Assembly (NCBI GenBank): GCA_037447655.1 | Contig: JBBHKE010001213.1 | Coordinates: forward strand, 43,633 to 68,799 | From: Zygnema cylindricum | Lineage: Eukaryota > Streptophyta > Zygnematophyceae > Zygnematales > Zygnemataceae | Reading direction: 5' to 3' | DNA: 25,167 bases | Shown here: positions 5,745-25,167 of the stretch, one piece after another | How positions within the stretch are numbered: the stretch's first letter is position 1 | Layout of the letters: every line of letters starts with the position of its first letter | Position numbers and translations under genes: made by a program | The notes under the pieces: model-generated | What the model was told of the DNA's origin: nothing | Databases searched by the model: none | The model's input: the letters and a program-made list of their open reading frames with translations, nothing else

Positions 5745-6461
5745 TGTTCTTTCGTAAGAAGAGGAAGAAAATATCTAAATTTAAACCTAGGACAGAGGTC
5801 CACAAAAATAGATAACGAAAGGCAGAATACTAGACTACGTTATTTAGCAGTAAGATCTATGAATCAAGTTGGTAGCAAAAGAGAATAAGGACGAATCTAG
5901 GATTCGAACACCCTTCGCTTTGCTAGAAACAGAGGTTGGCTGAGGACCGGTGAGCTTAGAATAGTGGTTGAGGAAGAACCTTTGTCAAAAAATCGGCCAT
6001 TAGTTGAGTAGTGGGACAGTGGTAGAAATGAACAGGGCCTGCAGCAATGGCCTTGCGAGTAAAGTGAAATTGGATGTCAATGTGCTTCTTCCGACGATGA
6101 TGAACATGATTGTTCATCAAGGCAAGGTCCCCTTGAGATTCACAAAAGATAGGTGTGGCAGATGATGGACAAAATTGAAGATTGAGGAAGAGAGAGCGAA
6201 GCAAGAGAGCCTCCTTAGTGGCATGAGTGGTAGACATGTACTCAGCTTCAGTTGAGGAGAGAGCAACGGTAGGTTTCTTTTTAGAGGCCCAAGAGACAAA
6301 AGCATTGCCGAGTGAGAAACAAACGCCGGTGGTGCTGCGCCGGTGGTTCTCATAATCGTCGGGTAACTTCATGATGAGAGTGTTAACTTTCTTTTTCATT
6401 GTAATTGTCCATCCGACACTCTCCATCTCCATATACTGATAAGAAAGATCATTATAGTAGT
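5745..6461 (-). mobile_element. Copy A: internally deleted Ty1/copia remnant (gag-RNase H-LTR/3' UTR)
   Basis: On the minus strand an open frame (6432 to 5956) starts with a copia gag signature, KKKVNTLIMKLPDDYEN. At about 6345 it switches without a stop to the RNase H domain (RRSTTGVCFSLGNA, then SSTEAEYMS, CESQGDLALMNN, HIDIQFHFTR, ADFLTK). Protease, integrase and RT are missing, so the copy is a deletion derivative. Downstream, 5955 to 5745 aligns by eye with 7874 to 7662 of copy B and ends in a minus-strand ...ACA, the expected LTR terminus. The exact LTR start and target duplication could not be defined. Its gag end abuts a non-LTR RT remnant at about 6462. Confidence 0.75.
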
Positions 6462-7661
6462 CTTCTCACCACATCGTGCCTTGTGGCAGTCACCAAACCT
6501 AATGGTGAAGTCTGCCCTATTGCCGTGGGAGAGGTTTAATATAGATTGGTTGCTCGTGCGATATGTCTCGAGCTCCAACCAACTTTCCATGATTATTTCT
6601 CTCCTCATCAGTTTGGAGTGGCCACGAGAGGAGGTTGTGAGGCCGTGGTCCACGCGATTAGGGATTTGTTGGATGTGCATCCGGATTGGTTGGTCCTTCA
6701 GGTCGACGTTTACAATGCTTTCAATACGGTGGATCGGAATGTGATTTTCTCGGAGCTTATGGCGGCTCCATCTCCGATTGTCCAATTATATCCCTTAAAA
6801 AGAGCTTTCTATTCTTTGACAAACAGCCTTTCCTTCTCGGCCAACAGTGATCTCACTCCTCTCTCCTTTGCGACTCGCACTCGTTGGGGAGACCCTCTTA
6901 GCGAACCTTTGTTAGCCCTTGCCTATTACCGGGCCCTTTGTGCTTCCGCAGCCGCCTTCCCTTCTTGCCTTTTCCCTTTGGTTGCACATGATACGCACAT
7001 TATTGGGCCTAGAGAACAAGTCGTGTTGGCATATGATTTTTTCAAGGAACGTTTAGCAGAACTCAACATTTCAATCTAACCTTGGAAGTGTGTTATTTGG
7101 TCTCCTCGAGATATTCCACCTTCCTTTACTCCCCCTGTTAATATTCAAACACTTTCTCCCTCCAATGGCATTCGTGTGCTTGGTTGCCCCCTTGGTTTGG
7201 ATACTTTCGTCACCCAATTCCTTCATGATGCTTTACAATCAGATCTTGCCCAAGTGGATGACCTTCCTCACCTTCCCGATCCCCAAGTGGCTTTTGCTAT
7301 GTTAACCAGGTGTTTTTCCCCACCGCCCTTCTTACCTTACTCGTACTTCCCCTCCCACCTCGACGTTTTTCTCCTCTCTCTCGATTTTTGACAATCGCCT
7401 CATGGATGTCCTCCACGCTCTATTAGGTCATGGGGAATTCGATCGCGAGTATGGGCCCTCGGCCCACATTCAGGCATCCCTCCCTGTCTCTTCTAGGGGG
7501 GGTTGGGTCTATTATCGACGGCTCGTGTTGCTCCTGCTGCTTATTTGAGAAATTGTGCGTTATTGCCTCTACTCTTGTTCCCATTTCTTGGCTGGGGACA
7601 CTCCCGTTCCAGCTGTCGTTATTTCCCGTGTTTCGGACAGTGTGTTCGCCTTTCAACGGTG
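6462..7661 (+). pseudogene. Decayed non-LTR retrotransposon reverse transcriptase
   Basis: The main reading frame begins near 6480 with VTKPNGEVCPIAVGEV. It continues with the RT fingers/palm signature HQFGVATRGGCEAVVHAIRD and the first catalytic Asp in VLQVDVYNAFN (about 6699), then the RGDPLS-like block (here WGDPLSEP). The catalytic A-D-D box reads VAHDTHI, so one Asp is His. Further downstream are IRVLGCPLGLD and GGLGLLSTARVAPAAYL, the C-terminal part of this RT family. Stops lie near 6534, at 7077-7079 and at 7389-7391, and a segment near 7391-7495 is read in another frame. The piece is 5'-truncated, lacks an endonuclease, and is bounded by copy A on the left and the LTR end of copy B (7662) on the right. 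Confidence 0.75.
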
Positions 7662-8720
7662 TGTCTTTTCGTAAGAAGAGGAAGAAAATATATAAATCTA
7701 AACCTTGGCCAAAGGTCCAGGAAAATAGATAATGAAAGGTATAATACTAGACTACGTACTCTAGCATTAAGATCAATAATTGAAGTTTGAAGCAAAAAAA
7801 AATAGGGACGAATATAGGATTCCAACACCCCCCCCGCTTTGCTAGAAACGGAGGCCGGCTGAGGACCGGTGAGCTTAGAATAGTGGTTGAGGAAGAGCCT
7901 TTGTCAAAAAATCGGCCATTTGTTGAGTAGTGGGGCAGTGGTAGAAATGAACAGTGCTTGCACCAATGGCCTCGCGAGTAAAGTGAAATTGGATGTCAAT
8001 GTGATTTGTCTGACGATGATGAACAGTATCGTTCATCAAGGCAAGGGCCTGTTGAGAATCACAAAAGATAGGTGTGGCAGATGATGGACAGAATTGAAGA
8101 TTGAGGAGGAGAGAGCGAAGCCAGAGAGCCTCCTTAGTGGCGTGAGTGGCCGACATGTACTCAGCTTCAGTTGAGGAGAGGGAAACAGTAGGATGCTTTT
8201 TAGAAGCCCAACAGACGAGAGCACAACCTAGTGAGAAACAAACACGGTGGTGCTACGACTGGAATCTAAGTCTCCCCCCAGTCCACTCGCAATGGCCAAA
8301 GAGAGGTGGAGGAGTGGAGCGAGTGAAGGTGAGTTTTAAAGTCCGGGTACCTTGAAGGTACCTAGGACTCTTTTGGCTACAACGAGGTGGTCAGTCTAGG
8401 TGTTGGATACTAACTGTCTACTGGGTTCCAGTCATGGCATACACCAGACTGCCAACTATGGATGTGAACTGATCATATATATCTTTGGGGACAGGCCCAC
8501 CAAAATTTTGAAGGAGTCTTACATTTAGATCTAGAGGGGTGGAGATAGGGGAACAATCAGCCATGGAAAATTTGGTCAAAATGTCACCTATGTATATTTC
8601 TAGGGAAAAGTAAAGAGTCATAGTGGAACGATCTCGACCAACAAAAATGCCAAACCGATACTCTACTTCCCCTAGATATGTCATTGAGAAATGGATGTTT
8701 AGCATGGTTTTGACCAGATG
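7662..8720 (-). mobile_element. Element M (copy B), 3' half: copia RT end, RNase H, LTR/3' UTR
   Basis: Minus-strand copia remnant. From 8720 leftward, the RT C-terminal part reads KTMLNIHFSMTYLGEVEYRFGI and then SIVGSLVYAMTGTQ. A scrambled linker follows (8430-8270), then RNase H (SSTEAEYMSATHATKEALWL, CDSQQALALMN, HIDIQFHFTREAI, ADFLTKALPQPLF) ending at 7875. A frameshift lies between the DWGGDLDS-like and CFSLG-like segments near 8255. The 3' untranslated/LTR part (7874-7662) is homologous to copy A and ends at a TG in the non-LTR RT remnant. The RT frame continues past 8720 only on the far side of nested element N, at 12420-13130. Confidence 0.78.
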
Positions 8721-8933
8721 TGTTGAAATAAATAGTTTTTGGGTATTTTCTAGGTCTAAATATATTAGCGGAAAAAGATAAGAAAAATAAAGGCAGCCTG
8801 CCTCCATCCCTTCTTTCTTGCCCCCATACTCGTTGTAGTCACTGAAAGAGAGAGAGAGTGATGGAGCCATGGCTACTTCAGCTCCATAGGTAGGACTAAA
8901 GAGTGACTTAAGTCACTCTTAACAAAAGGTTGA

Positions 8934-9002
8934 GTTCGGCAGGACTCGAGCCTCTGATCGGCATAGCGCAGCGTAGCTGTTAGCTCTAACCAGTCTGTGG
9001 GA
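8934..9002 (-). other. Antisense tRNA-like patch in LTR
   Basis: Read on the minus strand, the segment has a T-arm/B-box-like core (GGCTCGAGTCC, complement of 8942-8952) preceded by a D-arm-like GACTGGTTAGAGCTAACAGC. The 3' LTR copy (11628-11697) preserves it better, with GGTTCGAGTCC. It is not an intact tRNA gene: the acceptor and anticodon arms do not fold convincingly by eye. Confidence 0.4.
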
Positions 9003-9501
9003 GAAGTCCGTTAGGATATATAGGGTTTGGTATGTATTTAAACTATTGTATAGTACTAAAACCGTTTAACTAAAATATGTCTGAATGAACATAGAATTAG
9101 TTAAACTTTAGTGCGGACATCATTTCGTACGAAACAAGTGAATCTGATTTTGTTTCGACGGCCGACATTTAATGTCAGATTTAATCCGATGGCGCACATT
9201 TCTTCCGAGATCGCGGAATGGTCACTTTGGCGTTTATGGACGTGGGATGACCTGGCGCCACGTGGAGGGATAACATTTGGTCGCAGGATTTCCGGGGAGC
9301 GTACGGACGAGTGAAAGACTGACACGCGTCGACTCAACCGCCTTGTCGTACACCGGCCGTACAAAAAAGACATCAGCCGTAGTACCTTTATGTACTTTAC
9401 AGTCATATGATTGGTTTGTACTTCACTATAGAGGGGCTGTGAGAGGGTTTTAGGACTTAGGAAAATTTGGTAGGTAGTCACCTCTCTCTAAGAGAGATTT
9501 G

Positions 9502-9508
9502 TATAAAT
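9502..9508 (+). promoter_or_regulatory. LTR TATA box (TATAAAT)
   Basis: It follows the CTCTCTAAGAGAG-type stretch that also precedes the TATA boxes of the 3' LTR (12198-12204, TATAAAA) and of the copia element at 16953. The conserved position across diverged LTRs supports a promoter role (U3/R border shortly downstream). Confidence 0.6.
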
Positions 9509-9702
9509 TGGCATTTTTGTCCGCTCATAACTTATCGGCTGGTTGGCCGTTTCCAGTGATTCTTTTTGCTACGTACTCTGGGGAGTCGAGGCTGCATAGG
9601 GGTGTAATCAGACTGTTAGTTTGCCTCATTGGGCAGCAGTTGTTGTGGCTTGAAGTGGGTTAGCTAAAAACTATCTAGAGGCTTCGTGAATTCTGTAGTC
9701 CA

Positions 9703-11402
9703 ATGGAGGACACACCGAGACTTCCTTCCATTCCAGCTTCAGAGTTCGAGGGAGGGAGAAAGACCAGCAAAAGGATTCAAGAGAGACAAGCTGCTCATAA
9801 GGTAACTAAGCTATCTCATCCCGATGAGCCTCTGTCAAACTTGGAGGGAGTGAACAGCTCAAAAAAAGACAAATGGATTAGAGCCATAAATGATGAGATG
9901 GCTTCTATCATAGTAGCAAATACCTGGGAACTAACGATTGTCATCTAGATAGAAAACCTATTGGCTGTAAATAGGTATTTAAACTAAAACTGAACCCAAA
10001 TCATACCATTGAGAGATATAAGACTCGATTATTAGCGAAGGGGTTCACCCAAAAGGACGGGATTGACTATGAGGAGACCTTTGTTCCAATTGTTCGGTTC
10101 CCACCAGTAAGGATTCTCCTCAGTCTGGCAGCAGCGGAAGACATGGAAATACACCAGATAGACATTAAAACTGCTTTTTTTAATGGTGAATTAGAGGAAG
10201 AAATTTTCATGAGGCAACCTGAGGGGTTCAAGGAGGAAGGAGAAAAAAACAAAGTCTGCAAGCTCATAAAGTCCTTATATGAATTGAAGCAAGCTCCCCG
10301 ACAGTGGAATAAGAAACTAGATGAGTTTCTCACCACTCTGGGGTATATCCGGATTAGCTCTGCCATTCTATCTATACGTTTGAAGATGAGAATGGTGTCA
10401 TTTTTAATGCAATCAATGTCGATGATCTGCTTGTGCTTAGTAAGTCTTTAGAAAAGATGAATAGGTTAAAGAAAGATCTTAGAAGCAAGTTTGATATGAA
10501 AGATTTAGGTGAGGCAAGATACATTTTGGGGATCCAATGGAGAGAGAAAGGGGGAAAAGGATTATCATACTTACTCAAAAAGAAGCAAAAGGTAATATGC
10601 TTGAGAAATTCTAGATCGAAAAGGCTAACAGTTGTACCACTCCCATGTACTTGAAAAAAGTAAGTGATGGGAGTGGAGAAGGGGGAGTGTTAATCTTAGA
10701 TGATCAGATGAGCCCAGAAGAGAGAGAGTTTATGAAGTCTATCCCTTATAGACAGGTCGTAGGAAGTTTGATCTATTTTATAAACTGTACAAGACATAAC
10801 GTAGCGGCAGCAGTAGGAGTCTTAACGATCCTATGAAGAGAGATTGGGAGGCAACGAAGAGAGTCATGAGATATCTGGTAGGAACCAGAGAGTTATGGTT
10901 GCATTTGGGAGGGGAGCACACTAATATCACTACTTGGAGTGATATCAGTTATAGGGATGCACCTATGAGAAGATGCACTTCTGGGTTGGTGTTGAATAAG
11001 GGGGAAGGTGTTTGCTGTTGGAGCAGTAAGCAACAAAAGGTGGTTGCTCGGTCTACTATGGAGGTTGAGTATATGGCCTATTGTTTGGCTGTGAAATAGA
11101 TGATGTGGGTCAAATCCTTGTTGCAAGAATTGGGGTATATGAAGGAGGGAGTGCATGAAGTTTTTTGTGATAATGAGGCTGCCTTTGCTTTTTCAACCAA
11201 TCCAAAACATTATTTCAAGGCTATGCATATGGACATAAGATTGAGCTTCGTGAGGGAAAAGGTTGAAAATAAAATTGTAAATCTTGTGTATAAATCCGAT
11301 GAAGAAATGGTGGCTGACATGATGACCAAACGTGTGCCCTCTCCCAAGTTAAAATATTGTACGCAAAAATATGGATTAAAAAAAAAGTTAAAATTAGAAT
11401 AG
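9703..11402 (+). pseudogene. Element N remnant coding region: RT and RNase H
   Basis: An ATG inside the LTR 3' end (9703) is fused by the deletion, in frame, to the pre-RT linker (LPSIPASEFEGGRKTSKRIQ), open to 9948. Frame breaks follow. RT resumes at 10143 with HQIDIKTAFFNGELEEEIF, including MRQPEGF and QAPRQWNKKLDEF, and shifts frame near 10365. The catalytic box reads NVDDLLVLSKS. RNase H lies at about 10740-11402 (VGSLIYFINCTRH, WSDISYRDAPMRRCTSG, CDNEAAFAF, ADMMTKRVPSPK). The copy is useful because it keeps CAA, CGA and TGG at the three sites that are stops in the copia element at 16134. Confidence 0.82.
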
Positions 11403-11415
11403 AAAATAATGGGAG
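11401..11415 (+). other. Polypurine tract of element N
   Basis: AGAAAATAATGGGAG lies immediately before the 3' LTR start (TG at 11416). It differs at one position from the PPT at 21516-21530. It primes plus-strand synthesis in LTR retrotransposons. Confidence 0.8.
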
Positions 11416-12419
11416 TGCTGAAATAAATTGTTATTGGGTATTTTCTAGGTCTAAATAGATTAGCAGAAACAGATAAGAAAAATACAGGCAGCCTGCTTTC
11501 ATCTCTTCTCTCTTGCCCCCATACTTGATGTAGTCACTGTAGGAGAGAGAGAGAGTGATGGAGCCATGGCTACCTCAACTCCATAGGCGGGACTAAAGAG
11601 TGACTTAAGTCCCTCTCAACAAAAGGTTGAGTTCGACAGGACTCGAACCTCCGACCGGCAGAGCGCGGCGTAGGCGTTAGTTCTAACCAGTCTGTCGCAG
11701 AAGTCCGTTAGCATATAAAGGGTTTGATATGTATTTAAACTATTGTATGGTACTAAAATCGCTAAACTAATTATGTATGAATGAACATAGAATTAGTTGA
11801 AGCTTAGTGCGGTCATCATTTCGCACGAAACAAATGAATCTGATTTTGTTTCGACTGTCGACATTTAATGTCAGATTTAATACAACGGCACACATCACTT
11901 CCGAGATCGCGGAATGGTCACTTTGGCGTTTATGGACGTGGGATGACCATGCGCCACGTGGAGGGATAACATTTGGTCGCAGGAATTCCGGGGAGCGTAC
12001 GGACGAGTGAAATATTGACACACATCGACTCAACCGCCTTGTCGTACACACGCCGTACAGAAAGGACATCGACCGTAGTACCTTTCTGTATCTTACAGTC
12101 ATATGATTGGTTTGTACTTCACTAGAGAGGGGCTGTGAGAGGGGTTTAGGACTTAGGAAAATTTGGTAGGTAATCACCTTTCTCTAAGAGAGCTTTGTAT
12201 AAAATTGGCATTTTTGCCGGCTCATAACTTATCGGTTGGTTGGCCGTTTTCAATGATTCTTTTTGCTACGGACTCAGCGGAGTCCAAGTTGCATAAGGGT
12301 GCAGCCAGATTATCAGTTTGTCTTCTTGGGCAGCAGTTGTTGTGGCTTGAAGTGGGTTAGTTAAAAACTATCTAGAGGCTTCCTGAATTTTATTGTCCAA
12401 TGGCGGACATAGAATTGCA
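11416..12419 (+). repeat. 3' LTR of element N
   Basis: It starts TGCTGAAATAAATTG after the PPT and ends AGAATTGCA, matching the AGAGTTGCA end of the LTR at 22580. The target duplication AGATA follows. It contains a TATAAAA box (12198-12204) and an antisense tRNA-like patch (11628-11697) whose T-arm complement is 11639-11649. A downstream open stretch (about 12163-12360) shares residues with the equivalent stretch of the 16134 LTRs. Confidence 0.85.
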
Positions 12420-13130
12420 AGATAAATGAGAGAAAGAGAGGGGCTAACAAGCAGGAGATCATCTATATAAATGACAAGGATGATAAGTGTGTCTGTGGTG
12501 CCATGAATGAATAGGCCCAAATCCGCATCTAATTTGGAGAAGCCCTCACGGACGAGAATTGCCTCCAAATGTTTGTTCTAAACTCTAGGAGCTTCCTTAA
12601 GGCCATAAAGGGATTTCAGGAGACAACATACAATATGCTTTGTGTCAGGAGACACATACCCTCCCGGTTGCTTAAGGAATATTTCTTTAATGAGGGAATT
12701 GTAGAGGAAGGTTGTTTGCACATCCATGTGGTGGACATCTAAGTCTTGGGCAGCAACAAGAGAGAGGAGAACGTGACTAGAGGTGAATTTGCAACCGGGG
12801 TATAAGTTTATGTGAATTCAATGCCCCCTTTAGAAAAAATCTTTCCCCCCCAAAGCGAGCCTTAAATTTGTCAAGAGTTTTGTCCGATTTTGTTTTAACT
12901 CGAAAGACCCATTTCGATTCGATGACTTTTCTGCATATAAGAAGGAAGGTGAGTTCCTAGATGTCGTTTTGTTGGGGAGATGCAAATTCAAAACCAAAGG
13001 CGACTTTTCATTCGGTAGTATGAGGATTGGCCATGGCAGCGGAGAAGGTAAGTGGGACATTAATGGTGGCAGAATTTGCTGATCCATGACTAAGATGCTG
13101 GGCCTTGTCATGCGCCTAGGCGTCGGCGGG
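12420..13130 (-). mobile_element. Element M, 5' part: copia RT N-terminal half
   Basis: Minus-strand copia RT in several frames. From about 13075: sequence like AAMANPHTTE, then KVIESKWVFRVKTKSDKTLDKF (around 12915-12870), a TYTPV-like block, a DVHH/MDVQT-like block, LKSLYGLKEAP, and an open stretch 12568-12425 with LVREGFSKLDADLGLFIHGT and the catalytic box IYIDDLLLVSPSLSLI. The frame then runs into the left flank of nested element N (8720 and below). Stops and frameshifts are frequent between 12580 and 12830. Sequence to the right of about 13130 no longer looks like copia, so no 5' LTR of M is seen. Confidence 0.75.
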
Positions 13131-14313
13131 TGTTATTGCTGAATCTTATACTAATTCGCGTGTATGTGACGTGACAGGTTCGTAATTTTTCGTACTGCTG
13201 AAGGTACAAGATAATCAAAGGTCGTACTACATGCATCTACGATACAACGGGAAACCGACGTGGAACTAGAATTCTGTTCGGCATCAATTGTCAAGAACTC
13301 TAAAGGCTCCGATCTTGACAGATGGCTAAGTCGTGAACCCTTAGAGGTTCATGCATTATTTTTTGTAATGTAGGGAGGGTTTTCATCCTCGAGGTGTAGA
13401 TGAAAGGTATCCCGAGGCGGATACGCAGCGACCGTCTCTAAAAACTGGCAGCGTTTGCACATAGAAACCTGCTTGCTCAAAGACATATAAGAATTAGTGT
13501 AGCTGTACGATACGCAACAACATAGGATAAAAACCATGTGGCTGCGTAGGAATTGTTGTAAATTACAGCACGGGAATCCAACATTGGAGAGTTGGCGTTT
13601 TTTGGCAAATTTGTATTCCTCGGGATTTGTCGAACCTTTTTGTTTCACTTGGCATTTTCGGCAGCATATTTAGTATCAGTTAGTTGTTGAGTTAGGGTTT
13701 CTCTCTCTCGATCCTTAGTTTCTTGCTAGCTGTTGCCTTTGAGCTTTCTTATCTCTCTTTTCTGTACTAAGTCTTTAGCTAATCTACCGGCGCAAGCTAG
13801 CTTGCAAGGTTTCCCTCCAGCCTGTGTCTCACTTGCCGTGGTCAATGAATTCTGGCGTGTGAATCTTGGGTTTTATTGTTGCTTGTGCGCGGTTTTTGTC
13901 GTTTGGCTCTCTTTTCTTCTAATTTTGGGAGTGCCGGTTTTCTCGGCGGCTACATTCAATTTAGGAGAGTCTGCGGTCTACTAATTCGACTCTTGTAGGG
14001 AATATTGAAGACTTTAGGGCCTAGTGGCCACTGACGCAAATATTCATGTGTTGTAATTTGTCAATCTTTTCCAGTCAGCATTAATTGTTTGTTTTGTTTT
14101 CTTTTCCAGTCTAGTTGTTTTCTTCGGATTGATTTAGTTTTAACTCTCAATTTTTAGGGTTTATTTTGTTTGGTGGACTCTGAGTTTGATATTTCTGATT
14201 TTGTTTCTAAATCCGGTGTAGTTTCCTCTTTCTGTCTACCTACTGGATTAACTCACTTAGAAAACCTAGGAAACTAAAAACTTATAAAAAATATATATAT
14301 AAAAAACCAAGAG

Positions 14314-14373
<60 letters not shown>

Positions 14374-14952
14374 CCATGTTAATTAGGTCATATTAATTAT
14401 CACATAAAATAATAACTGCTTTAAAAGTTGGGTGGCGCGTGGCTTAAAGTTGATACCCGTACCCTAACAGGCTACTAACTACTTTGGCATTGAGCTGTGG
14501 TGTGATTACGATCATGTGGAACCGAAGCAACTTTGGGAGACGTTTATAGTATCCTACTGGATGTTATCGCTTCAGGTGAGTAACCGATCCTTGTGGGTGC
14601 AGGCGTGATCTAGTCTATCGAGTGTACTCACTTAGAGGGTTAGAGATCTTATCGAAGGCTGCGCCCTTGTTCTTCGCATAACACATCATTATTGCGTGGT
14701 CCGAGATCTGACCTTGATTGGTATTGAGTAGCAGTTTCTTGATTTCTTACATCTGGCCGTGTTGGCCCTGAATGGTTTCTTGCTTATTACATCTGGCCGC
14801 AAGTGGCCTTGTATAGGTGACATGAGTTTGCTTGGTGTTGCTTGATGTGAGTGGAATTGCGAAAGACAGTTTACGAGTAGACTAACTCCGGTGATGCACG
14901 ATATACCAAAATTCTTGGTGTTGGTGGTTTGCGGTTGTTAGTATACTTTTGA
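13131..14952. other. Non-coding stretch, probably Ty3-type 5' LTR/leader plus unknown DNA
   Basis: No recognisable protein. A 99-codon minus-strand open frame (13349-13648) and an 83-codon hydrophobic plus-strand one (13733-13984) match nothing I know. Features: a pyrimidine-rich patch near 13690-13750, (AT)27 at 14317-14370, a consensus splice donor CAG|GTGAGT at 14573-14581, and a repeated TTACATCTGGCCG...TGGCC block near 14747 and 14786. Because gag starts at 14953, the stretch may include the Ty3-type LTR and leader. I could not identify a PBS or an LTR edge, and the second LTR would lie outside the window. Confidence 0.35.
14317..14370. repeat. (AT)27 microsatellite
   Basis: An uninterrupted AT dinucleotide run, preceded by interrupted AT-rich sequence from about 14280. 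Confidence 0.95.
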
Positions 14953-16133
14953 ATGTGTTCGGCATTTAGCTCCATTCGGATAGGACGATCTTCTGGTTAC
15001 ATGCCAACAAACTGGAATAATTTTCAGTTCTCGGCCGGTACCACCAGAAGCTCAAGTTTTTACCGTGGGCCGCCCAGTGAGTCGATTACAGCCGGCTCCC
15101 TTCCGATATCTTTTCTAAACTCAGCAGTCCAGTCGCAATTTTTAAGATCACCCAGTCTGTCTAGATCTAGTCTTTCTTCTCTCCGAAGGTCTATGTCATC
15201 TATTTTTTTGTCATTCACCCACTGTTTAGGGGACGATTCGGACACCGACTCACTTGACATACACGGTCTAGGGCTACCGCCGTCAATTTTCTCAGTGAAC
15301 AGTACCTTACACACTAATTTTGATCCTTCTAGCGTAGACATAGCTTCATCCATTGACACCGGAGGAGGCAAACATCATTTTTGTGTTTTTGGTCTCAAGG
15401 ACAACATGTCATTGTCACACTTTCGCATGCTTTTTGATACCGAAATGCGTGACCTCGCATTTCGGCACCAGGACCATTATGACCTACGGGTTGCTTTTTC
15501 GTTACTGAGACGATACCTCACAAGATCTGCCCTATCTCTCCATACTCAAAAATATGAAGAAATTTGTGCTATGACTGCAATAGCACCCGCATATTTCGGA
15601 GCTCTAGCCATAGTAGACAGTCCCAAAATTCCTTTTCAAGCGGCTGTCCGTGCGGTTTATGACTTAGCAGGAAATGAAACTTCACCCGCAATACCGGAGA
15701 TTCCTCATCAATTTGCAGTGGCGGCTCGGGCTGCATATTTGGCTAGACCTGAAATGCTGGTCCTTCAAAGAGATCCAATCTCTTTGATTTTCGATTTTTT
15801 ACATGGAGAGTACCGAATGCAAAATCCAGACCAAGTCAAAGAATTAATGAACTTTGAACGCAAACCGGGCGAAACAGCATTGGGGCTGCGGTCTCGTATG
15901 GAAAAATTACGTGAAGCCCTACCAGATCTAATGTCAGAGGCTGAGGCGGTACAAAAACTTGTGGGTCAATTTCCCACAAAATCTTGACGGTTCATTCAGA
16001 ACCGCTTGACCGAAGCATATGGCTTTAAATTCACTTTCGAGCAGGCTGCAGTGTATGCCGTAAAGAATGAAATGCAGACCAGCTGGTGGGACGCTCATGA
16101 GCGGCCTCGGTCCTTGCCTAAAGATCACCTTAA
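14953..16133 (+). pseudogene. Ty3-type gag, N-terminal part
   Basis: An open frame from the ATG at 14953 runs 344 codons to a TGA at 15985-15987. The same frame then continues (RFIQNRLTEAYGFKFTFEQA) to the copia insertion at 16134. The capsid-like part reads LMNFERKPGETALGLRSRME followed by LREALPDLMSEAEAVQKLV, the helical pattern of retrotransposon gag proteins. The N-terminal ~110 residues are Ser-rich and low in similarity; a second Met at 15001 is an alternative start. The TGA is one transition from CGA or TGG. The reading frame resumes after the insert at 22586 with no shift. Confidence 0.65.
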
Positions 16134-16798
16134 TGTAGAAACTAATGGTTTTAAAGTATTTTCTAGGTCTGAAAAGAAATAAAGAAGTTGAGGCAGTCTA
16201 TCTCTAACTTCTCTCTCCAACTCTCAAACTTGTCGCAGTCACTGAGAAATTGGAGAGGAAGCAAGAGCCATGGCTACCTAGGCTATCCTGAGGTTTACGG
16301 GAAATTTATATTAGTTAAGGTTTATTTAATTAGAATGTATGTGCCGGCGACAGGAATTGATCCTTGTACCTACCGGGCGGCAGACAGGAAATAGCCGGTA
16401 GCCTTAGCCGTTAAGTCTAGGATTAATGTTACGTAGTATATAGGTTGATAATTATTTAAATATGTATACGTACGATAATTCATTTAACTATAATTGATTA
16501 CGTGATACATAGATCCGGTAATATATAAAGTACGGATTACGGTACGGATTAAGAATCAATATCGCGCATTTGTTTCGTAAGTGAAACAAATACCGCGCAT
16601 GTATTTATTACGGCTACGATTAAATTACATTCTAATCGGACGGCCGCAATTAGCGCCGAGATCGCGGAGGAAGATTTCGGCGGTTTATGGTCATCGCCAC
16701 ATCGGATGATGTGTGGCGAAATTACGTTGGATCGTGGAATCTCCGGAGATTATGGCACCGAATCCGGATATGACATGTGTCGACATTTAGGCAATGTC

Positions 16799-16873
16799 GT
16801 ACAATGTCCGTACCTAAAGTACACCGGCAGCTGTACTTTTGCGTACGGAACTCAATTCTGATTGGTTCCGTAC
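16799..16873 (+). promoter_or_regulatory. Cluster of six GTAC cores upstream of the TATA box
   Basis: GTAC at 16799, 16810, 16819, 16833, 16843 and 16870, several as CCGTAC or CGTACGG. All six are kept in the 3' LTR (about 22195-22275), and five occur at the same distance from TATA in element N (9348-9421). GTAC is the core bound by the green-lineage SBP-box transcription factors. A link to them here is inference. Confidence 0.45.
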
Positions 16874-16952
16874 ATCAGTAGATAGAGTCTGTGAGAGAGA
16901 TAGGACTTAGAAAAATTTAGAAGATAGGACCCTCTCTCCCAGAGAGCTTCTG

Positions 16953-16960
16953 TATAAAAG
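16953..16960 (+). promoter_or_regulatory. LTR TATA box (TATAAAAG)
   Basis: It is preceded by a CTCTCTCCCAGAGAG-type stretch and repeated identically in the 3' LTR at 22350-22357. The 3' LTR copy is oriented to drive transcription rightward into the zinc-knuckle part of the interrupted gag. Confidence 0.7.
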
Positions 16961-17163
16961 GTGAACTTTGACCCTCCATAGCTTACTGCTCAGGGGAGCA
17001 AATTCAGAGATTCTTTTTGCTATCAACTCAGGGGAGTCTTGCCTTCACAGGGGTGCAGGTGGTCAGGGTTTTTGTCTGCCAAGGTGGCAATTATTTTTGC
17101 TGAAACACAAAGGGGTCAGGATTATCCTAGAGGCTTCTTGGAAGCTGTCTACTCCGACGACTT

Positions 17164-20100
17164 ATGGAGGTCTCAGAGTTTCAGGTTATGGGCCCACCCT
17201 CTAGGGTACCAATCTTTAATGGAACTGGTTTCATATACTGGGAAATTATGATGATAAGAGCTCTATGCGAAAAAAGGTTTTGGGGGCATCTGAGTGGACG
17301 GTTGGGGCGTCCATCAAGTCTTGGAATTCCTCCAGGATTTGGAGGAACTAGATTCACCAGGAAAGAGGATTCATCTTCAACGGAGGAAACAAAAGAAGGA
17401 GAGGTGGTGGACAAAGGAAAGGAGAAAGAGACGACCACACCAATAGCAACTTTCACATTCATGTCGCCTATTCCGAGGAATGAGGAGAATGATACTGAAA
17501 CCTGGGACTTCAACAATATGGCGGCAAAGCACTTCATCCTACGCCATCTCACTCAAGGACTTGCATGTCCTCATTTGCAGGTAGAAAGGGCATTCGATCT
17601 TTGGATGGCTCTCATAGAGATGTACCGAAGTGGTACGATTCAGCAACAACAGTTGGCTGATCAGAAAGTTAAGGAGTATGTATACAAAGGGGGAAATATG
17701 TTGGATTTTTGCAATGAGCTTGCTACACTCTTCATGGAGCTAGAGAGTGCGGGAAAAGATTTTAGTGAAAAAGAAAAGGTTAACTGTTTACTCATGAAGT
17801 TACCTGATGAGTTCGTGAACATAGTTTACCGTGTGAAGGACTTGCCTGACTCAAGGTGGATATGGAACTCAGTGGTAGGGATGATTCTCGTTCAAGAGAA
17901 TACAATTGAGATCCGAAGGGGAGGAAAGAGTGGCCAAGCCTTGGCAACAGCGACTGATTGGAGGAACAGGGATTCCCGAAAACCGATCGGAAACTATGGG
18001 GAGAGGGAGCAGAAAAAACAGGCCGACGAGCTCGAACCAAGGGCTCCCAAAGGTTTATGTCATTTTTGTAAGAAACCGGGGCACTATATGGCAGAGTGCA
18101 CTAAGCTAACCGAGCTTCGGTTAAAAGAGGGGCAGACCGGTGGTACCCCGAGGGGAAAGAAAAAGGCCCTTGTCACACAGGTACTTAAGGCGGAATCTGA
18201 GGACGAGGACGATGAGCTCCTTTTGGATGAGGAGTTGGAGGCGAAAAATGAGGTCAAAATTCCACGAAGGCAGAAATGTGCTTTCGGTGGATTGAAAGGT
18301 GAAGCAGGCTGGATTGTAGATTCAGGTGCCTCCATGCACATGTGTAAGGATAGACACCTGTTCACTAAGATAAGAAAGATTCCCACCGTAGAGATAGAGT
18401 ACGTGGATGGGAGGATAGTCACCACTACTCTTGTAGTATCGGTAGATTTGAAAGTGTTAGTAGAAGGAAAGACATCCATATTAACATTCTCCGATGTATT
18501 GTTTATTCCGGAGCTGAACAAAAATCTTATCTCTACATCAGTATTAGATGATAAGGATTTTTTCACTAGCACTAGGGAAGGAGTCTTTACTGCTAGTTTT
18601 GAGGAGGATGTCTATTTCATTGCTGAGAAAGGTAGCCATGGGATGTTTAGGCTGATCTTAAGTAATGAAAAGAAGAAACTTTATTATGCTGGTGTTCATG
18701 ATATTATGATGTGGCATAAGAGGCTTGGGCATGTGAATCTAGATAAGTTAAGAGAGATGAAAAAGATGGGAGTGGTGGAAGGGATTCAGTTTAGTGAAAG
18801 TGATGATATAAGTGATTGTAGTGGATGTGCTCAAGGTAAAGCACACAGATTACCCTTTCCTGAATCAGCCACCTATAAGGGAGAAAAAATTCTAGATTTA
18901 GTACACACAGATATTTGGGGACCAGCTAAAGTGCCCTCACCGGGGGGGAAGAGATTTATGATGACTATAACTGATGATTGGTCTTGGTATTCCCGGGTAT
19001 ATTTTTTGAAAAACAAGTCCGAAGCTGAGGATTGTTTTAGACAATATAAAGCATGGAGCGAAAAACTCCATGAAACTCCAATCAAGAGAGTAAGGAGTGA
19101 CAATGGTGGAGAGTATACTTCTAACCAGTTTGAGAATTTTCTGAGGGAAGATGGGGTTCAACATCAAAAGAGAGTTCCAGAAAATCTAGAACAGAATGGG
19201 GTAGCTGAAAGGTTAAATAGAACACTAAGTGATAGTGCTAGAAGTATGTTGTCAGATAAAAAGATAGGAAAAAGGTTTTGGGCAGAAGCAATGAACTGTG
19301 CTAATTACCTCAAGAATAGAGTTCTTACTTCAGCTATAAAAGATCAAACACCTTATGAGAGATGGAGAGGCTGGAAACCAGACATATCTCACTTAAAGGT
19401 TTTCGGCAGTCAAGTGTTCAATCTAGATACTGATCGGTCCAATTGGAAGCTAGATCCTAAAGGAAAACCAGGATACTTATTAGGATATGATGAAGATGTT
19501 ATAGGATATAGAGTTTATGATCTAAAAAGGGAAGATATAATCTTAGTAAAGAATCTAGAAGTTATGGATGAAGGAAAGTCTGTGGATCCCTTCAAATATA
19601 CGAAGTCAGTAAAAATCAGATTTGAGTCAGAAAATTCCGATGACTTTGCGCTTCCTAACTATCCAGGTTTTAGAGAAGATGACATTCTTGCAGGAACAAA
19701 TCAGACCGAAAAGGACTTGGCTGTGGAAACTCCAGTGACAACTCTACTCGAAGCGGAAGACGTGGTGGAAATTTATTCGGAATCAAGGGATCGGGGAGAA
19801 GCCGAGTTTGTTCGAAAGAATCCACGAGAACCATCTATTCCGGCCTCAGATTTTGAGGGGGGGAGGAGAAGTAGCAAAAGACTGCAAGAAGAACAGGTTA
19901 ATAACAAGGTAACTAAACTATCTCATCAAGATGAACCTCAAACTTATAGAGAGGCGATGACTTGTCCAGAAAGAAACCGGTGGAAGACAGCCATCAATGA
20001 GGAGATGGCTTCAATCATGGCAGCCGATACTTGGGAGCTGGTGGACTGTCCACCTAACCGAAAACCAATCGGTTGTAAGTGGGTTTTCAAATTAAAACTG

Positions 20101-21510
20101 AACCCAGATAACACAATCGAGCGCTACAAGGCCAGATTAGTGGCAAATGGATCACAAAAGGAAGGAATTGACTACGAGGAAACCTTTGCCCCGGTGGTCA
20201 GATTTCCCTCCGTCCGCATACTTCTCAGTTTAGCAGCGGCGGAAGACATGGAAGTGCATCAGATGGACATCAAGATAGCCTTTTTGCATGGAGAATTGGA
20301 AGAGGAGATCTTTATGCGATAACCCGAAGGGTTTCAAGAGGAAGGAGAGGAGAGTAAGGTATGCCAGCTAATTAAATCTCTTTATAGTTTGAAACAGGCG
20401 CCTTGACAGTAGAATAAGAAGCTTGATGAGTTTCTTACCGGTTTGGGATATATTCGGATCAGCTCAGATCACTCAATCTATGTTTTCGAAGATGAGGAAG
20501 GTTTTATATTTATTGCAATTTATGTTGAAGATTTGCTTGTTTTAAGTAAATCAATGGAAAAAATTAACAAACTGAAAACCGATCTTAAGGGGAGATTTGA
20601 AATGAAGGATATGGGAGAAGCAAGATATATTTTGGGAATTCAAGTAGAGAGAGACCGAAAAAGGAAAATTATAAGACTGACTCAAAAGGAAGCAATAGGG
20701 AACATGCTTGAAAAATTTCAAATGGATAAAGCTAATAGTTGTACAACTCCAATGGAGTTGAAGAAGGGAAGTGAGGGGAGTGAGGAAGAAGGAGTCATAG
20801 TCTTAGACGAGGAATTATCTCCTGATAAACAGAAGTTCATGCAGACTATTCCTTACAGGCAAGTAGTGGGAAGTCTAATCTATTTTATGAATTGTACCCG
20901 GCCGGATTTAGCTGCAGCTGTAGGAGTGCTGAGTAGAAGTCTAAATGCTCCCACTAAGAAGGATTGGGAGGCAGCTAAGAGAGTCCTTAGATATTTGGTA
21001 GGAACTAGGGATCTATGGTTGCATTTGGGTGGGGAGAATACTGACATCACTACTTGGAGTGATGCTAGTTATGGTGATGCTCCGATGAGGAGATGTACTT
21101 CTGGATATGTATTATATGTGGGTGATGGGGCTTGCTGTTGGAGTAGTAAACAGCAAAAGGTTATTGCTCAGTCCACCATGGAGGCTGAGTATATGGCCTC
21201 TTGCTCTGCTGTAAAAGAATTGATGTGGGTCAAGTCTTTGCTTGGTGCGCTTGGCCACCCTAAGAGTGGTGTGCAAAAAATATTTTGTGATAATCAGGCA
21301 GCAATCGCTATTTCTGCCAATCCTAAACATCATTTTAAAGCCAAACACATTGACATCAGACTCAGCTTTGTTAGAGAAAAAGTAGAAAACAAAATAATCA
21401 GTTTAGAGTACAGACCAGATAGTGAGATGGTAGCGGATATGATGACCAAACCTGTGCCTTCCCCTAAGCTAATTTTTTTGCAGGGAGAAGTGTGGTCTGA
21501 AATTAAAGAT
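17164..21510 (+). pseudogene. Copia gag-pol polyprotein with three nonsense mutations
   Basis: A single frame, open 17164-20319 and 20443-21510. Start: Met at 17188 (residue 9, inside the PBS) is the usual-looking gag start (MGPPSRVPIFNGTGFIYW); the ATG at 17164 in the LTR adds eight residues. Domains by residue from 17164: gag UBN2-type block with VNCLLMKLPDEF (~205), CCHC knuckle C299-C302-H307-C312, acidic linker (~340-356), protease DSGA (D386), HHCC pre-integrase zinc domain (H518...), integrase D583-D646-E682 with 35 residues between the last two, RT from ~955, RNase H near the end (WSDASYGDAPMRRCTSG, STMEAEYMA, CDNQAAIAIS, ADMMTKPVPSPK). Stops: TAA 20320, TGA 20404, TAG 20410. The RT catalytic box reads YVED (20521-20532) instead of YVDD. 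The copy is probably inactive, though recent. Confidence 0.93.
17184..17198 (+). other. Primer-binding site: initiator tRNA-Met anticodon arm (half-tRNA priming)
   Basis: GGTTATGGGCCCACC starts at the base after the LTR. It is the exact reverse complement of GGTGGGCCCATAACC, the anticodon stem-loop segment of plant initiator tRNA-Met as I recall it. This fits priming by an internal tRNA fragment, as known for Drosophila copia, rather than by the tRNA 3' end (which would give TGGTATCAGAGC). The site also contains a gag ATG (17188-17190). Confidence 0.8.
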
Positions 21511-21515
21511 TGACT

Positions 21516-21530
21516 AGAAAATAAGGGGAG
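21516..21530 (+). other. Polypurine tract of the copia element
   Basis: AGAAAATAAGGGGAG abuts the 3' LTR start. It lies just after the polyprotein stop (TGA at 21511). Confidence 0.85.
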
Positions 21531-22580
21531 TGTAGAAACAAATGGTTTTAAAGTATTTTCTAGTTCTGAAAAGAAATAAAGAAGCCGAGGCAGTCTATCT
21601 CTAACTTCTCTCTCCAACTCTCAAACTTATCGCAGTCACTGAGAAATTGGAGAGGAAGCTAGAGCCATGGCTACCTTGGCTATCCTGAGGTTTACGGGAA
21701 ATTTATATTAGTTAAGGTTTATTTAATTAAAATGTATGTGCCGGCGACAGGAATTGATCCTTGTACCTACCGGCCGGCAGACAGGAAATAGCCGGTAGCC
21801 TTAGCCGTTAAGTCTAGGATTAATGTTACGTAGTATATAGGTTGATAATTATTTAAATATGTATACGTACGATAATTCATTTAACTATAATTGATTACGT
21901 GATACATAGATCCGGTAATATATAAAGTACGGATTACGGTACGGATTAAGAATCAATACCGCGCATTTGTTTCGTAAGTGAAACAAATACCGCGCATGTA
22001 TTTATTACGGCTACGATTAAATTACATTCTAATCGGACGGCTGCAATTAGCGCCGAGATCGCGGAGAAAGATTTCGGCGGTTTATGGTCATCGCCACATC
22101 GGATGATGTGTGGCGAAATTACGTTGGATCGTGGAATCTCCGGAGATTATGGCACCGAATCCGGATATGACATGTGTCGACATTTAGGCAATGTCGTACA
22201 ATGTCCGTACCTAAAGTACACCGGCATCTGTACTTTTGCGTACGGAACTCAATTCTGATTGGTTCCGTACATCAGTAGATAGAGTCTGTGAGAGAGATAG
22301 GACTTAGAAAAATTTAGAAGATAGGACCCTCTCTCCCAGAGAGCTTCTGTATAAAAGGTCAACTTTGACCCTCCATAACTTACTGCTCAGGGGAGCAAAT
22401 TTAGAGATTCTTTTTGCTATCGACTCAGGGGAGTCTTGCCTTCACAAGGGTGCAGGTGGTCAGGGTTTTTGTCTGCCAGGGTGGCAGTTATTTTTGCTGA
22501 AACACAAAAGGGTTAGGATTGTCCTAGAGGCTTCTTGGAAGCTGTCTACTCTGAGGACTTATGGAGGTCTCAGAGTTGCA
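21531..22580 (+). repeat. 3' LTR of the copia element
   Basis: Same length as the 5' LTR; it ends CAGAGTTGCA followed by the target duplication CTTAA. The part downstream of TATA is open from 22365 through the LTR end and, by chance of phase, joins the interrupted Ty3-type gag frame, giving one open frame to 23084. Confidence 0.95.
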
Positions 22581-23084
22581 CTTAATCCTAATCCTAACCA
22601 GAATCTTAACCCGCGCAACCCATGGCCTAACCCGAGACCTCCAAGGGCTTCCGCCATGGGAACACTACCGACACCCCTTGGGGTGCCTGTCTGCCTCCGG
22701 TGTGGTCACGGTGGTCTCGACGCACGCAGCTGTCTAGATAAGACGGCTACGTGCACTTATTGCAACCAAACAGGTCATTATGTACATCGTTGTCACATTA
22801 AGAATCCTGATTTCTGTTATCAAAATCAAATCAAAAACAGCGGTATACCTAGTCGCTCGAGAAATTTAACCACTTCACCTAAAGGGGATGAGAAAGACAC
22901 TCCCCCCAAAATCAGCCGGAGGGACCAAGATAGAGCAGAGATGCAGGCTACCGTGGCAGCCATGATGAAGGAGCAGTTTGCCGCGCTTATGGCGCATGTT
23001 AAACCGCAATTAACTGGCATAGACCGAACCGTAGTCCATATGCCCTCCTTTGCTGGACGATATCTCCGAGAGTCAACAGTCTAA
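22581..23084 (+). pseudogene. Ty3-type gag, C-terminal part with zinc knuckles
   Basis: It resumes the frame left at 16133. A Pro/Asn-rich spacer (NPNPNQNLNPRN) leads into two nucleocapsid-type knuckles. The first (22692-22733) reads CLRCGHGGLDARSC and lacks the His at the usual position. The second (22752-22793) is a perfect CX2CX4HX4C, CTYCNQTGHYVHRC. A charged helical segment follows (RRDQDRAEMQATVAAMMKEQ), and the frame ends at TAA 23082-23084. The same frame is open again right after this stop, so the TAA is likely a mutation within a longer gag-pro frame. The gag part binds genomic RNA in such elements. Confidence 0.75.
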
Positions 23085-23866
23085 CAGCGGGCAGCTATTT
23101 TCCAAGTGACTCTCGATCATAATCGTGAGTCTAAATCCATTAACACTCGCATACCATTATCATTTGCTAAAGAACCTAAAACCCTTATCTCGGAAACAGC
23201 CTCTAGCATTACAGCTGAGGCCTTAACCATTCTAGAGGGGAGTATACAAGATGTCTATAAGGTCAAAGAAAGGTTAGCACTACTGTCCACTATGCTTCCT
23301 GAATTGAATAGCGAGGCTAAATCCTCAGATCTAACTCAATCTGCAGATGCATTACAAGGGCTTCAAAACCATCGTAGTACCCCATCTCTTCAAACAATTG
23401 CTCTTAAAGAGCGTTCCTGTCTTACCCCACACATCAGTTTTCTGGATAACAAGTCAAGCGTGTTCACAGTTAATGGAGTGGCCCCAGCTTTACCTCTCAT
23501 GGACACAAGGGCAAAACCTATTATCCTTCGATCTGATTTTGCCAAAAAAATAGGTCTTACGGCAGATACACTATAACGCACTACCACTCGTTTGTTGACT
23601 TCCGCAGGAACCACAAAACCAGTCTTGTGTATGATAAAAGAACCACTCTGTTTTCAATTTTAGTGTCAACAAAACCGATTTCAGAAAATACTCACGCCTA
23701 CCAAATTAGTGATTATTTAGTGCCTGTCAGGACGTCAATTTTCGGTGCTGATATTCACATCAAACATTTTGTACAGACCAAAACAATTTTCCAACCGCAG
23801 TTTGCTTACTCTCTCATCTCGGCAAACCCATGTCGACATTTCGTTCATTCCGCGGTCCTTTGCTGA
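23085..23866 (+). pseudogene. Ty3-type protease region (retropepsin-like), damaged
   Basis: A frame open to TAA 23574-23576 carries NGVAPALPLMDTRAKPIILR, the flap/active-site pattern of retroviral-type aspartic proteases, in which the motif should be DTGA; here Gly is Arg (AGG at 23508-23510). Downstream FAKKIGLTADTL fits the family. The C-terminal part continues in the same frame to about 23640 and then in frame +2 (YQISDYLVPVRTSIFGADI), with a frameshift between. It would normally cleave the polyprotein. The residue change, stop and shift suggest it is dead. Confidence 0.6.
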
Positions 23867-23935
23867 AATGTCAGTTAGTTACTGGCAATCAAATTCTTAA
23901 TTGTTAACAATTAAATCTTACCTGATCCGTAGGGA

Positions 23936-25101
23936 GTGCAGGAATTATATGGCACACCCGGATTTATCATTGGCTCCTCAGAATTTGATAGATTGTACGA
24001 ATTTACGATACCGATTCCCTTATTCGGTATTCCGGATCCACCCGCAATTGCAATGGATCCTTACGGGTTCTTGCCTATTAATTGGAGACCAGTTAGTTTG
24101 CAACCTAACCCGAACGGTCTCGTTATCTTAGACCTTTTTGCAGGAATAGGTACCACACTTCTCTCTTGCTTTCGGAACGGTCTTCTGATTAAGCAATATT
24201 ATTCCGTAGATATTGACCTATTGGCTAGACGCGCTCAGTTACACCACTGTCAAATCTTGCATGAACAATACCCTCACCTCTTACCACAGTCCGCTTTTCA
24301 CAGCATGCACTCCGCTATACCAAGGGATATTCGCTTAATAGGAAATTATTAATTGTGAGAATTAGAATTGATCGATCTCCTTTTCGCCGGATGGGAATGT
24401 CAAGGTATGTCTAGGGTCGGGTAGGGCTTAGGTCTTGCAGATCCCCGTACTAAACCGTTCTTTGAGGTAGTGCGGCTTATCCATTTTTTTCAATCACTGG
24501 ACCGCCCTTTTGGATACGTTTTAGAAAACGTTGCAGCGAATAATGACCCCCGACCCACAGTTCTCGCAGATTACAAACGCATTGAATCATTAAGTGGACC
24601 GCCATTGATCATAGATGCTGCACTTCACGGTTCGTTGGCCCACCCGGTTCGTTCCAAGCGAACTAACCTGGTGGACATAGGACTGTTCCGAGAAGCTAAC
24701 ATCGCAGTCCGACCACCTAAACTTTCCATTGCAGAAGCACTTCTTCCATTTCTTAAGGTCCAGACATGTGTCAGATAGACTATCCTCCTCCATTTTGCCT
24801 TAACATCCCTGGCCAGCCATTATGTGCACTTCCTACACTTATGGCATATCTAAACTCTCATGCATATTCACATAACAGACCTGGTATGCTTCAGAACACA
24901 CATACGTGCAGTCTAGAAGAACTTACTGCTGCAGATTGAGAACACCATCTCCATTTCATCCCAGGCACCACTGCTGCCCCAGGACTCACTGAGCGACAAC
25001 GCTGCACATTACTTGGTCGGGTCATGGATCCACAATCAGTGTCATTTGTCTTGGGCATAGGGTTTGCATCCGGTCGATACTCACAGAACCATCCGTCTTA
25101 A
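23936..25101 (+). pseudogene. Retrotransposon-borne cytosine-5 DNA methyltransferase, degenerate
   Basis: Would transfer a methyl group from S-adenosylmethionine to cytosine C5. Motif I, ILDLFAGIGTTL, is at 24128-24163 (SAM binding). An acidic YYSVDID segment follows. Motif IV is GWECQG with the catalytic Cys at 24398-24400, normally preceded by Pro but here by Glu. Motif VI ENV is at 24524-24532. The motif VIII-like segment is HPVRSKRTNL after DAALHGSLA (24614-24670). After a frameshift near 24765 the C-terminal block reads GTTAAPGLTERQRCTLLGRVMD (to about 25029). Motif order is canonical, unlike the permuted DRM type. Stops at 24350, 24356, 24422 and 24937 are each one transition from a sense codon (e.g. 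CAA, CGA, CAG). An upstream extension, TPGFIIGSSEFDRLYEFTIP, is shared with elements of this kind as I recall. Confidence 0.8.
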
Positions 25102-25167
25102 TCAGCTGGGGGGGGGGATATACCATTTAAACACACTGCCTCAAAATCCTCACCTTCTCTTCGGGGT

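Follow-up and report, generated by a model that had tools for sequence, protein, structure and literature searches.

The window, by which we mean the whole 25,167-nucleotide stretch of Zygnema cylindricum DNA analysed here, holds, in decayed form, approximately the 5′ half of a Ty3/gypsy-type element whose coding region specifies Gag, a protease and a DNMT3-like cytosine methyltransferase. Comparison with other copies in the same genome identifies it, with high confidence, as a dead copy with an unassembled 3′ part, belonging to a multicopy Ty3/gypsy-class family whose polyprotein is predicted to run Gag–protease–DNMT3-like domain–RT–RNase H–integrase–PHD finger and whose insertions are flanked by 4-bp duplications. 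This confidence extends to what can be read from the sequences: the domain order, the presence of at least 150 copies, the conservation of the methyltransferase across subfamilies, the odd termini and the 4-bp target duplications. A wider proposal, in which we place about even confidence, is that the lineage couples an epigenetic writer (the DNMT3-like domain) to a reader (the PHD finger) and normally integrates from an end-joined circle, leaving a copy-specific record of the join.

Reading of motifs was not accepted as proof of identity, because the unjoined window pieces gave no C5-methyltransferase match above the Pfam cut-off and, against solved structures, a DNMT3A match with an E value of 0.9 at best. 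Proof comes from homology to a sister copy on contig C1344 of the same genome, which has an open frame of 2395 aa. The window aligns to this frame in four blocks, corresponding to gag (73% amino acid identity), gag to protease (68%) and two parts of the methyltransferase (81% each), the last of which reaches the final window base. The sister methyltransferase domain matches PF00145 at 4e-9 and DNMT3A at 1.8e-10. The methyltransferase motifs named in that prediction lie where it placed them, with DLFAGIGT at 24131–24154, ECQ, the ENV of YVLENV at 24515–24532, an RxR-like segment (HPVR in the window, HRVR in the sister) and the C-terminal block LTERQRCTLLGRVMD at 24985–25029. The gag knuckles and aspartic protease that it described 5′ of the methyltransferase on the same strand are likewise present, with DTRAKP (DTG in the sister) inside 23496–23522, and homology to the sister establishes the identity of all these segments. 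The end of the gene was misplaced at 25101: positions 25099–25101 are a premature stop, and homology continues to the last base of the window. The earlier reading of a methyltransferase-bearing Ty3-type element is supported, and three points go beyond it: the window copy is dead, a copia insertion splits it, and the family carries a PHD finger that lies outside the window.

Table 1. Features of the methyltransferase-bearing element and its nested insertion, in window coordinates.
Feature	Position	Strand	Basis and remarks
A1, terminal repeat at the 5′ end of the methyltransferase element	13106..14042 (right edge approximate)	+	starts TGTCATGC; 72% identity to A1 and A2 of sister copy; TGTC terminus as in sisters
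Leader between A1 and coding frame, with AT microsatellite	14043..14880	+	sister alignment from 14049 on; sequence
gag, part 1	14881..16128	+	73% aa identity to sister Gag over 422 residues; in-frame stops 14950 and 15985
copia target duplication CTTAA, left copy	16129..16133	+	sequence
Nested Ty1/copia element within gag	16134..22580	+	LTRs 97.6% identical, 1047 bp; Pfam matches to Gag, integrase and RT
copia target duplication CTTAA, right copy	22581..22585	+	sequence
gag, continued	22586..23490	+	68% aa identity to sister copy; two knuckle segments 22692–22793; stop 23082
Aspartic protease remnant (DTRAKP; sister DTGAKP) and eroded linker	23491..23914	+	stop 23574; frame change before DNMT
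Predicted DNMT3-like C5 cytosine methyltransferase domain, decayed	23915..25098	+	81% aa identity to sister domain
Motif IV GWECQG, catalytic Cys kept, usual Pro replaced by Glu	24389..24406	+	148 genomic ECQ-pattern matches, control 0
Polyprotein continuation toward RT, cut by contig end	25102..25167	+	homology to sister copy reaches last window base

The window copy is dead, as its stops and frameshifts show; the frame of the methyltransferase is interrupted by stops at 23930, 24350, 24356, 24422, 24937 and 25099 and by a frameshift near 24776, and gag has been split by the younger copia element. The portion in the window amounts to about 55% of the length of the sister element. The window forms the right end of contig C910, so that the RT, integrase and 3′ repeat of this copy are unassembled and A1 is the sole terminal repeat visible. 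A G-run at 25108–25117, just 3′ of the methyltransferase, resembles a central polypurine tract, and a comparable run is seen in copies C1344, C1407, C449, C829, C82, C1374 and C544. A second copia-type element lies at 8720–12409, where repeats of about 1 kb (blocks 87–91% identical) flank an RVT_2 fragment; near it are weak minus-strand copia matches (5959–6465 and 8421–8912) and a weak RVT_1 match (6540–7076), all under the cut-off.

Searches of the whole assembly (352.8 Mb, 2689 contigs) revealed many relatives. With PF00145, 123 of 782 candidates were scored and all exceeded the cut-off; with the methyltransferase piece of the window as query, 150 of 1041 first-look candidates were scored and all matched with E values of 8.2e-45 or better, which gives at least 150 copies, the remaining unscored candidates being unconfirmed. 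Twelve of these copies sit within open frames at least 900 aa long. The collection of further copies that had been proposed yielded, in C1344, the whole set from gag to PHD finger in a single open frame. Pfam matches along it are a zinc knuckle (0.0017) and a protease (PF13650, 0.0042), both under the cut-off, followed by DNA_methylase, RVT_1 (7.6e-30), RNase H (RT_RNaseH, 1.4e-34), Integrase_H2C2 (2.3e-15), rve (9.7e-12) and the PHD finger PF00628 (3.4e-10). The sister copies thus carry, in order, the Ty3/gypsy-type RT, RNase H and DDE integrase expected of the Ty3-type retrotransposon originally proposed. Copies C1407, C449, C829 and C82, though interrupted by frame breaks or stops, align to C1344 in matching order, and among eight further copies whose 3′ regions were examined, seven have the integrase–PHD tail (C1112 does not). 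The order recurs in a diverged family II (C1374, C544 and others). Here the presumed gag and protease occupy frames of their own, while a single frame of about 1520 aa takes in everything from the DNMT to the PHD finger, whose match (0.0034) is under the cut-off. The family of C1344 and the window (family I) and family II are 42% identical in the methyltransferase (328 columns) and 47% identical from RT to PHD (1027 columns).

The best solved relatives of the methyltransferase (METHYLTRANSFERASE) are DNMT3A and DNMT3B, with E values reaching 1.8e-10 for family I and 5.9e-14 for family II. HhaI is further off (0.0035 for family I, 1e-4 for family II), as is DRM2, which was matched by family II only (about 0.004). 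Methyltransferase motifs are conventionally named I, IV, VI, VIII and IX/X, and in our alignment they follow in this canonical order, unlike the rearranged order of plant DRM enzymes. At motif IV, the Pro-Cys typical of DNMT3 is replaced by Glu-Cys (GWECQG) in family I, including the window, whereas family II and a related contig from outside the genome have GWPCQG. The ECQ pattern has 148 matches in the genome, with varied synonymous codons among the first 100 places listed, and none in the reversed control; the W.CQ motif has been lost from three of the fetched family I copies (L004, L005, which is the C82 copy, and L033).

Comparison of C449, C829 and C82 with C1344 gave pN/pS values of 0.197–0.216 for the methyltransferase, 0.044–0.082 for RT and 0.13–0.16 for the PHD finger; stops in some copies bias these ratios upward, and C1407 is too close to C1344 to be used. 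The methyltransferase values were obtained at near-saturated synonymous distance (pS 0.72–0.80). The domain is thus conserved, but to a lesser degree than RT. In a family II pair, dN/dS was 0.16 for the methyltransferase, 0.11 for RT and 0.48 for the PHD finger (54 codons), so that constraint on the last is weak in this pair. For the PHD finger of family I, the solved relatives listed (60 of 86 matches) comprise, among others, PHF12, BAZ2B and PHF21A. PHF21A reads unmodified H3K4, as does the ADD domain of DNMT3.

The termini of these elements are unusual. The order A1–coding–B1–A2–B2 is found in C1344, C449, C829 and C1374, and a B–A–B 3′ end in 10 of the 15 copies read (C1344, C1407, C449, C829, C1374, C1915, C704, C2234, C1063 and C232, but not C544, C82, C783, C1112 or C2577). 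The same complete LTR does not occur at both ends: the 5′ end has A only and the 3′ end B–A–B. B1 and A2 meet in the palindrome GACAGCTGTC (GACA-GC-TGTC), which is exact in nine of the ten B–A–B copies and one base off in C704, and the integrated ends read TGTC...GACA. Perfect 4-bp duplications flank six of the eight B–A–B copies with both ends read (TTGG in C1344, AAGG in C829, TTGT in C1063, TAGA in C2234, CCCT in C1915 and ACTC in C704); C1407 and C232, which have lost their 5′ ends, were left out of the count. The exceptions are C449, with three of four bases, and C1374, with none. For C1915 and C1374 the start was taken at the second TGTC, which opens the terminal motif of the family. The probability of at least five duplications in seven by chance, calculated before C704 was added, is 2e-11. 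A1 and A2 are 99.1–100% identical in C1344, C829, C1063, C1915 and C2234 and 97–98% identical in C704 and C1374, thus indicating recent insertions. In C449 (G000:C449:121000-131000), they are only 80% identical over 1225 columns; its A1 shares 98.7% identity with the C1063 A1, against 72–89% for A2, which identifies this copy as a mosaic with A1 from the C1063 subfamily and A2 from another. Copies C544, C783 and C2577 end exactly at B1 (GACA), with neither A2–B2 nor a target duplication; an origin from 1-LTR circles was considered for them and dropped, since the duplication is missing and recombination is as likely.

By eye, no TGG-type tRNA primer site was seen behind A1. Nine copies were compared in this region, and in these B1 begins 0 to 9 bases behind a G-run resembling a polypurine tract. 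B2 also starts at or near this 3′ G-run, from which one to three G residues are retained in three B2 copies. The joins between A2 and B2 vary even between close copies: C1063 and C2234 are 98.8% identical up to the join, where A2 of C2234 ends about 80 bp earlier and its B2 keeps GG, and C1344 and C1407 are 99.8% identical up to the join, where C1407 lacks approximately the last 226 bp of A2. Some of these differences could be later deletions.

A cycle is proposed in which reverse transcription is primed at the 3′ G-run and would give a linear cDNA with long repeats reading B-gc-A. Plus-strand synthesis would start at the G-run and hence at the edge of B; just this order is then expected of the reverse-transcribed repeat, and the A2/B2 join would be the join of two cDNA ends. 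Imprecise joining of these ends would yield a 2-LTR circle, which integrase would open by cleaving the palindrome GACA-gc-TGTC inside one repeat, and the integrated product would be TGTC–A1–coding–B1–gc–A2–B2–GACA with a 4-bp duplication. Opening of a circle by integrase at the palindrome is suggested by the TGTC/GACA ends, the 4-bp duplications, the B1/A2 palindrome and the copy-specific A2/B2 joins, and we consider the cycle as a whole a plausible reading that stands at roughly equal chances of being right or wrong. In such a cycle, the writer (the methyltransferase) could modify the element's own cDNA, or the circle ahead of its integration, and the reader (the PHD finger, which follows the integrase) could select the chromatin to which integration is steered. 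The old circle-junction model has been set aside for retroviruses. If the terminal structure is read rightly, these elements would be natural retrotransposons whose integrating form is circular DNA, with copy-specific joins that are preserved in the genome and can be counted.

The same termini could instead reflect a DIRS-like cycle, in which the internal B1-gc-A2 block templates circularization of the cDNA, A–coding–B–A–B is inherited precisely, and a DDE integrase replaces the tyrosine recombinase in the last step only. The near-constant B1-gc-A2 block agrees with this, as does the repeat order, which is that of DIRS elements, as a figure legend states for the Klebsormidium element (PMC5890265). 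Against precise inheritance stand the A2/B2 joins, which vary among copies that are almost identical and begin at or close to the 3′ G-run, a pattern more in keeping with priming at that run and joining of ends. We regard the DIRS-like cycle as rather unlikely. No phage-integrase family, the mark of the tyrosine recombinase of DIRS elements, was found by Pfam in C1344 or C1374, where the rve integrase is present.

A more radical alternative would remove the methyltransferase from the element altogether, as a host or bacterial gene or pseudogene merely beside a gag fragment. The window alone, which lacks RT and integrase, would allow this, but the chance association that had been named as a possible refutation does not hold in the sister copies, where the methyltransferase occurs with RT, RNase H, integrase and PHD finger in the same order, in one frame in C1344 and in at least 150 copies. 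Matches elsewhere also argue against it, as those to viral, phage and most bacterial sequences are weak. In IMG/VR, the window methyltransferase piece had 15 pattern matches of which none was confirmed, and the first gag piece had none; the methyltransferase alignment matched 28 of 64 stretches (best E value 2e-12, relative to the candidates only), with best segments shorter than the whole domain. It also matched 108 phage records, all at less than 60% identity and with coverage of the query short of 80%. These matches lend no support to a recent viral or phage origin of the domain, which was also considered. GTDB gave five loci, four of them weak Streptomyces matches and the fifth a strong match to a contig that is itself such a retrotransposon. 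A stray gene is therefore extremely improbable. The methyltransferase could also be a passenger that has no useful activity owing to the Pro-to-Glu exchange in motif IV and is kept as a mere spacer in the polyprotein. The GWECQG motif is indeed widespread in family I, and CpG depletion is not clear there, with observed/expected ratios of 0.89–0.94 in four copies and of 0.89 and 0.78 in two stretches of the window copy (0.66 in family II with PCQ, and 0.49 in a copia coding region without DNMT); family I thus has no footprint favouring self-methylation at CpG. No activity in yeast was found for the published Klebsormidium DNMT, a result that its authors call inconclusive, while CG methylation in yeast was shown for the SymbioDIRS domains by de Mendoza et al., who also suggested methylation of cDNA (PMC5890265). 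A mere spacer would not, on the other hand, be expected to show purifying selection over near-saturated synonymous distance with the Cys, ENV and RxR segments kept, or the PCQ retained by family II and the outside contig, and this explanation seems doubtful to us.

Retrotransposons that bear a methyltransferase were already known from one charophyte and from dinoflagellates (PMC5890265), and DNMT3 in streptophyte and dinoflagellate retrotransposons is mentioned as earlier reported in a 2025 survey (PMC12344493). KnitGypsy-Dnmt3 of Klebsormidium nitens has LTR gypsy domains, an unrearranged Dnmt3-type domain in Pol, several intronless copies, DIRS-like repeats and purifying selection (de Mendoza et al. 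2018, PMC5890265), and the Zygnema family fits this published description, the sole basis of the comparison, feature by feature. The original prediction had left open whether this host and element belong to the same lineage as the charophyte elements. This question is answered in part by the GRAS genes, the gypsy RT and integrase, the DNMT3-type domain in Pol and the A–coding–B–A–B order, which agree with the description of KnitGypsy-Dnmt3. In the genome, 27 of 28 GRAS candidates are exon-level matches, and such genes presumably point to zygnematophytes or land plants. Differences from KnitGypsy-Dnmt3, again by description only, are the number of copies (at least 150, in two diverged families), the C-terminal PHD finger (the word PHD is absent from the main text of PMC5890265), the Pro-to-Glu exchange in motif IV of family I, and the 4-bp duplications and palindromic junction described here. 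What is added is therefore the PHD reader, the exchange beside the catalytic Cys and the end structure, and the gypsy form emerges as a lineage that is old and successful, with writer and reader both conserved, and not a curiosity of one alga. The dinoflagellate elements SymbioDIRS-Dnmt3 and SymbioLINE-Dnmt are also retrotransposons with a cytosine methyltransferase, and SymbioDIRS shares the repeat order, but they use a tyrosine recombinase or LINE machinery in place of the gypsy RT and DDE integrase found here (PMC5890265). Among the matches listed in open-licence literature, no paper dealt with a PHD finger in such elements or with their integration from a circle.

Chromoviruses, the Ty3/gypsy elements with an integrase chromodomain, likewise have a chromatin-binding module behind the integrase. 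The Zygnema elements differ from them in having a PHD finger in place of the chromodomain, a DNMT between protease and RT, and split terminal repeats; no chromodomain was found after the integrase among the Pfam families for C1344, where PF00628 stands in its place. Chromodomains are regarded as accessory domains (PMC6338049). For the proposed opening of the circle, the closest likeness is offered by spumavirus integrase, reported to cut the palindromic 2-LTR junction with loss of two nucleotides (PMC1180852), as here, and by HIV-1 integrase, which cuts its own junction palindrome in vitro (PMC1180852; PMC1905944). In both, cleavage of a palindromic junction makes both processed ends in one step. 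The palindrome there is the LTR–LTR join, however, whereas in Zygnema it lies inside the repeat and the presumed LTR–LTR join (A2/B2) is variable, so that the step from these viruses to the present element would be one of analogy.

The strong GTDB match, CADCWO010000201.1 (9285 bp), is filed under an uncultured Synechococcales cyanobacterium (isolate AVDCRST_MAG81) and carries the same domain set. Its two frames, with one stop between them, encode a protease (7.8e-4, under the cut-off), a methyltransferase with PCQ (6.8e-12), RT, RNase H, integrase and a PHD finger (1.9e-11, at 6459–6593), and it is 51–52% identical to families I and II from RT to integrase. A G-run at 6940–6946 lies ahead of its sole palindrome GACAGCTGTC, at 7051. 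This contig is probably a wrongly binned eukaryotic element, that is, eukaryotic contamination, and a crust alga such as Klebsormidium would be our guess at its source, since we take the isolate name to point to a soil crust. Its first and last 127 bases are the same, and these overlapping ends perhaps reflect a circle or an assembly loop.

Two further observations were made within the Zygnema genome. The family II copy at G000:C1374:31308-35679 contains a 3.7-kb insert between two copies of a 325–331-bp stretch made up of the ORF end and B. A third methyltransferase lineage, with GWPCQGYSQAG, is present at G000:C412:296156-299485 (L003); it is about 51% identical to family II over the first 311 residues and possibly represents a further retrotransposon family.
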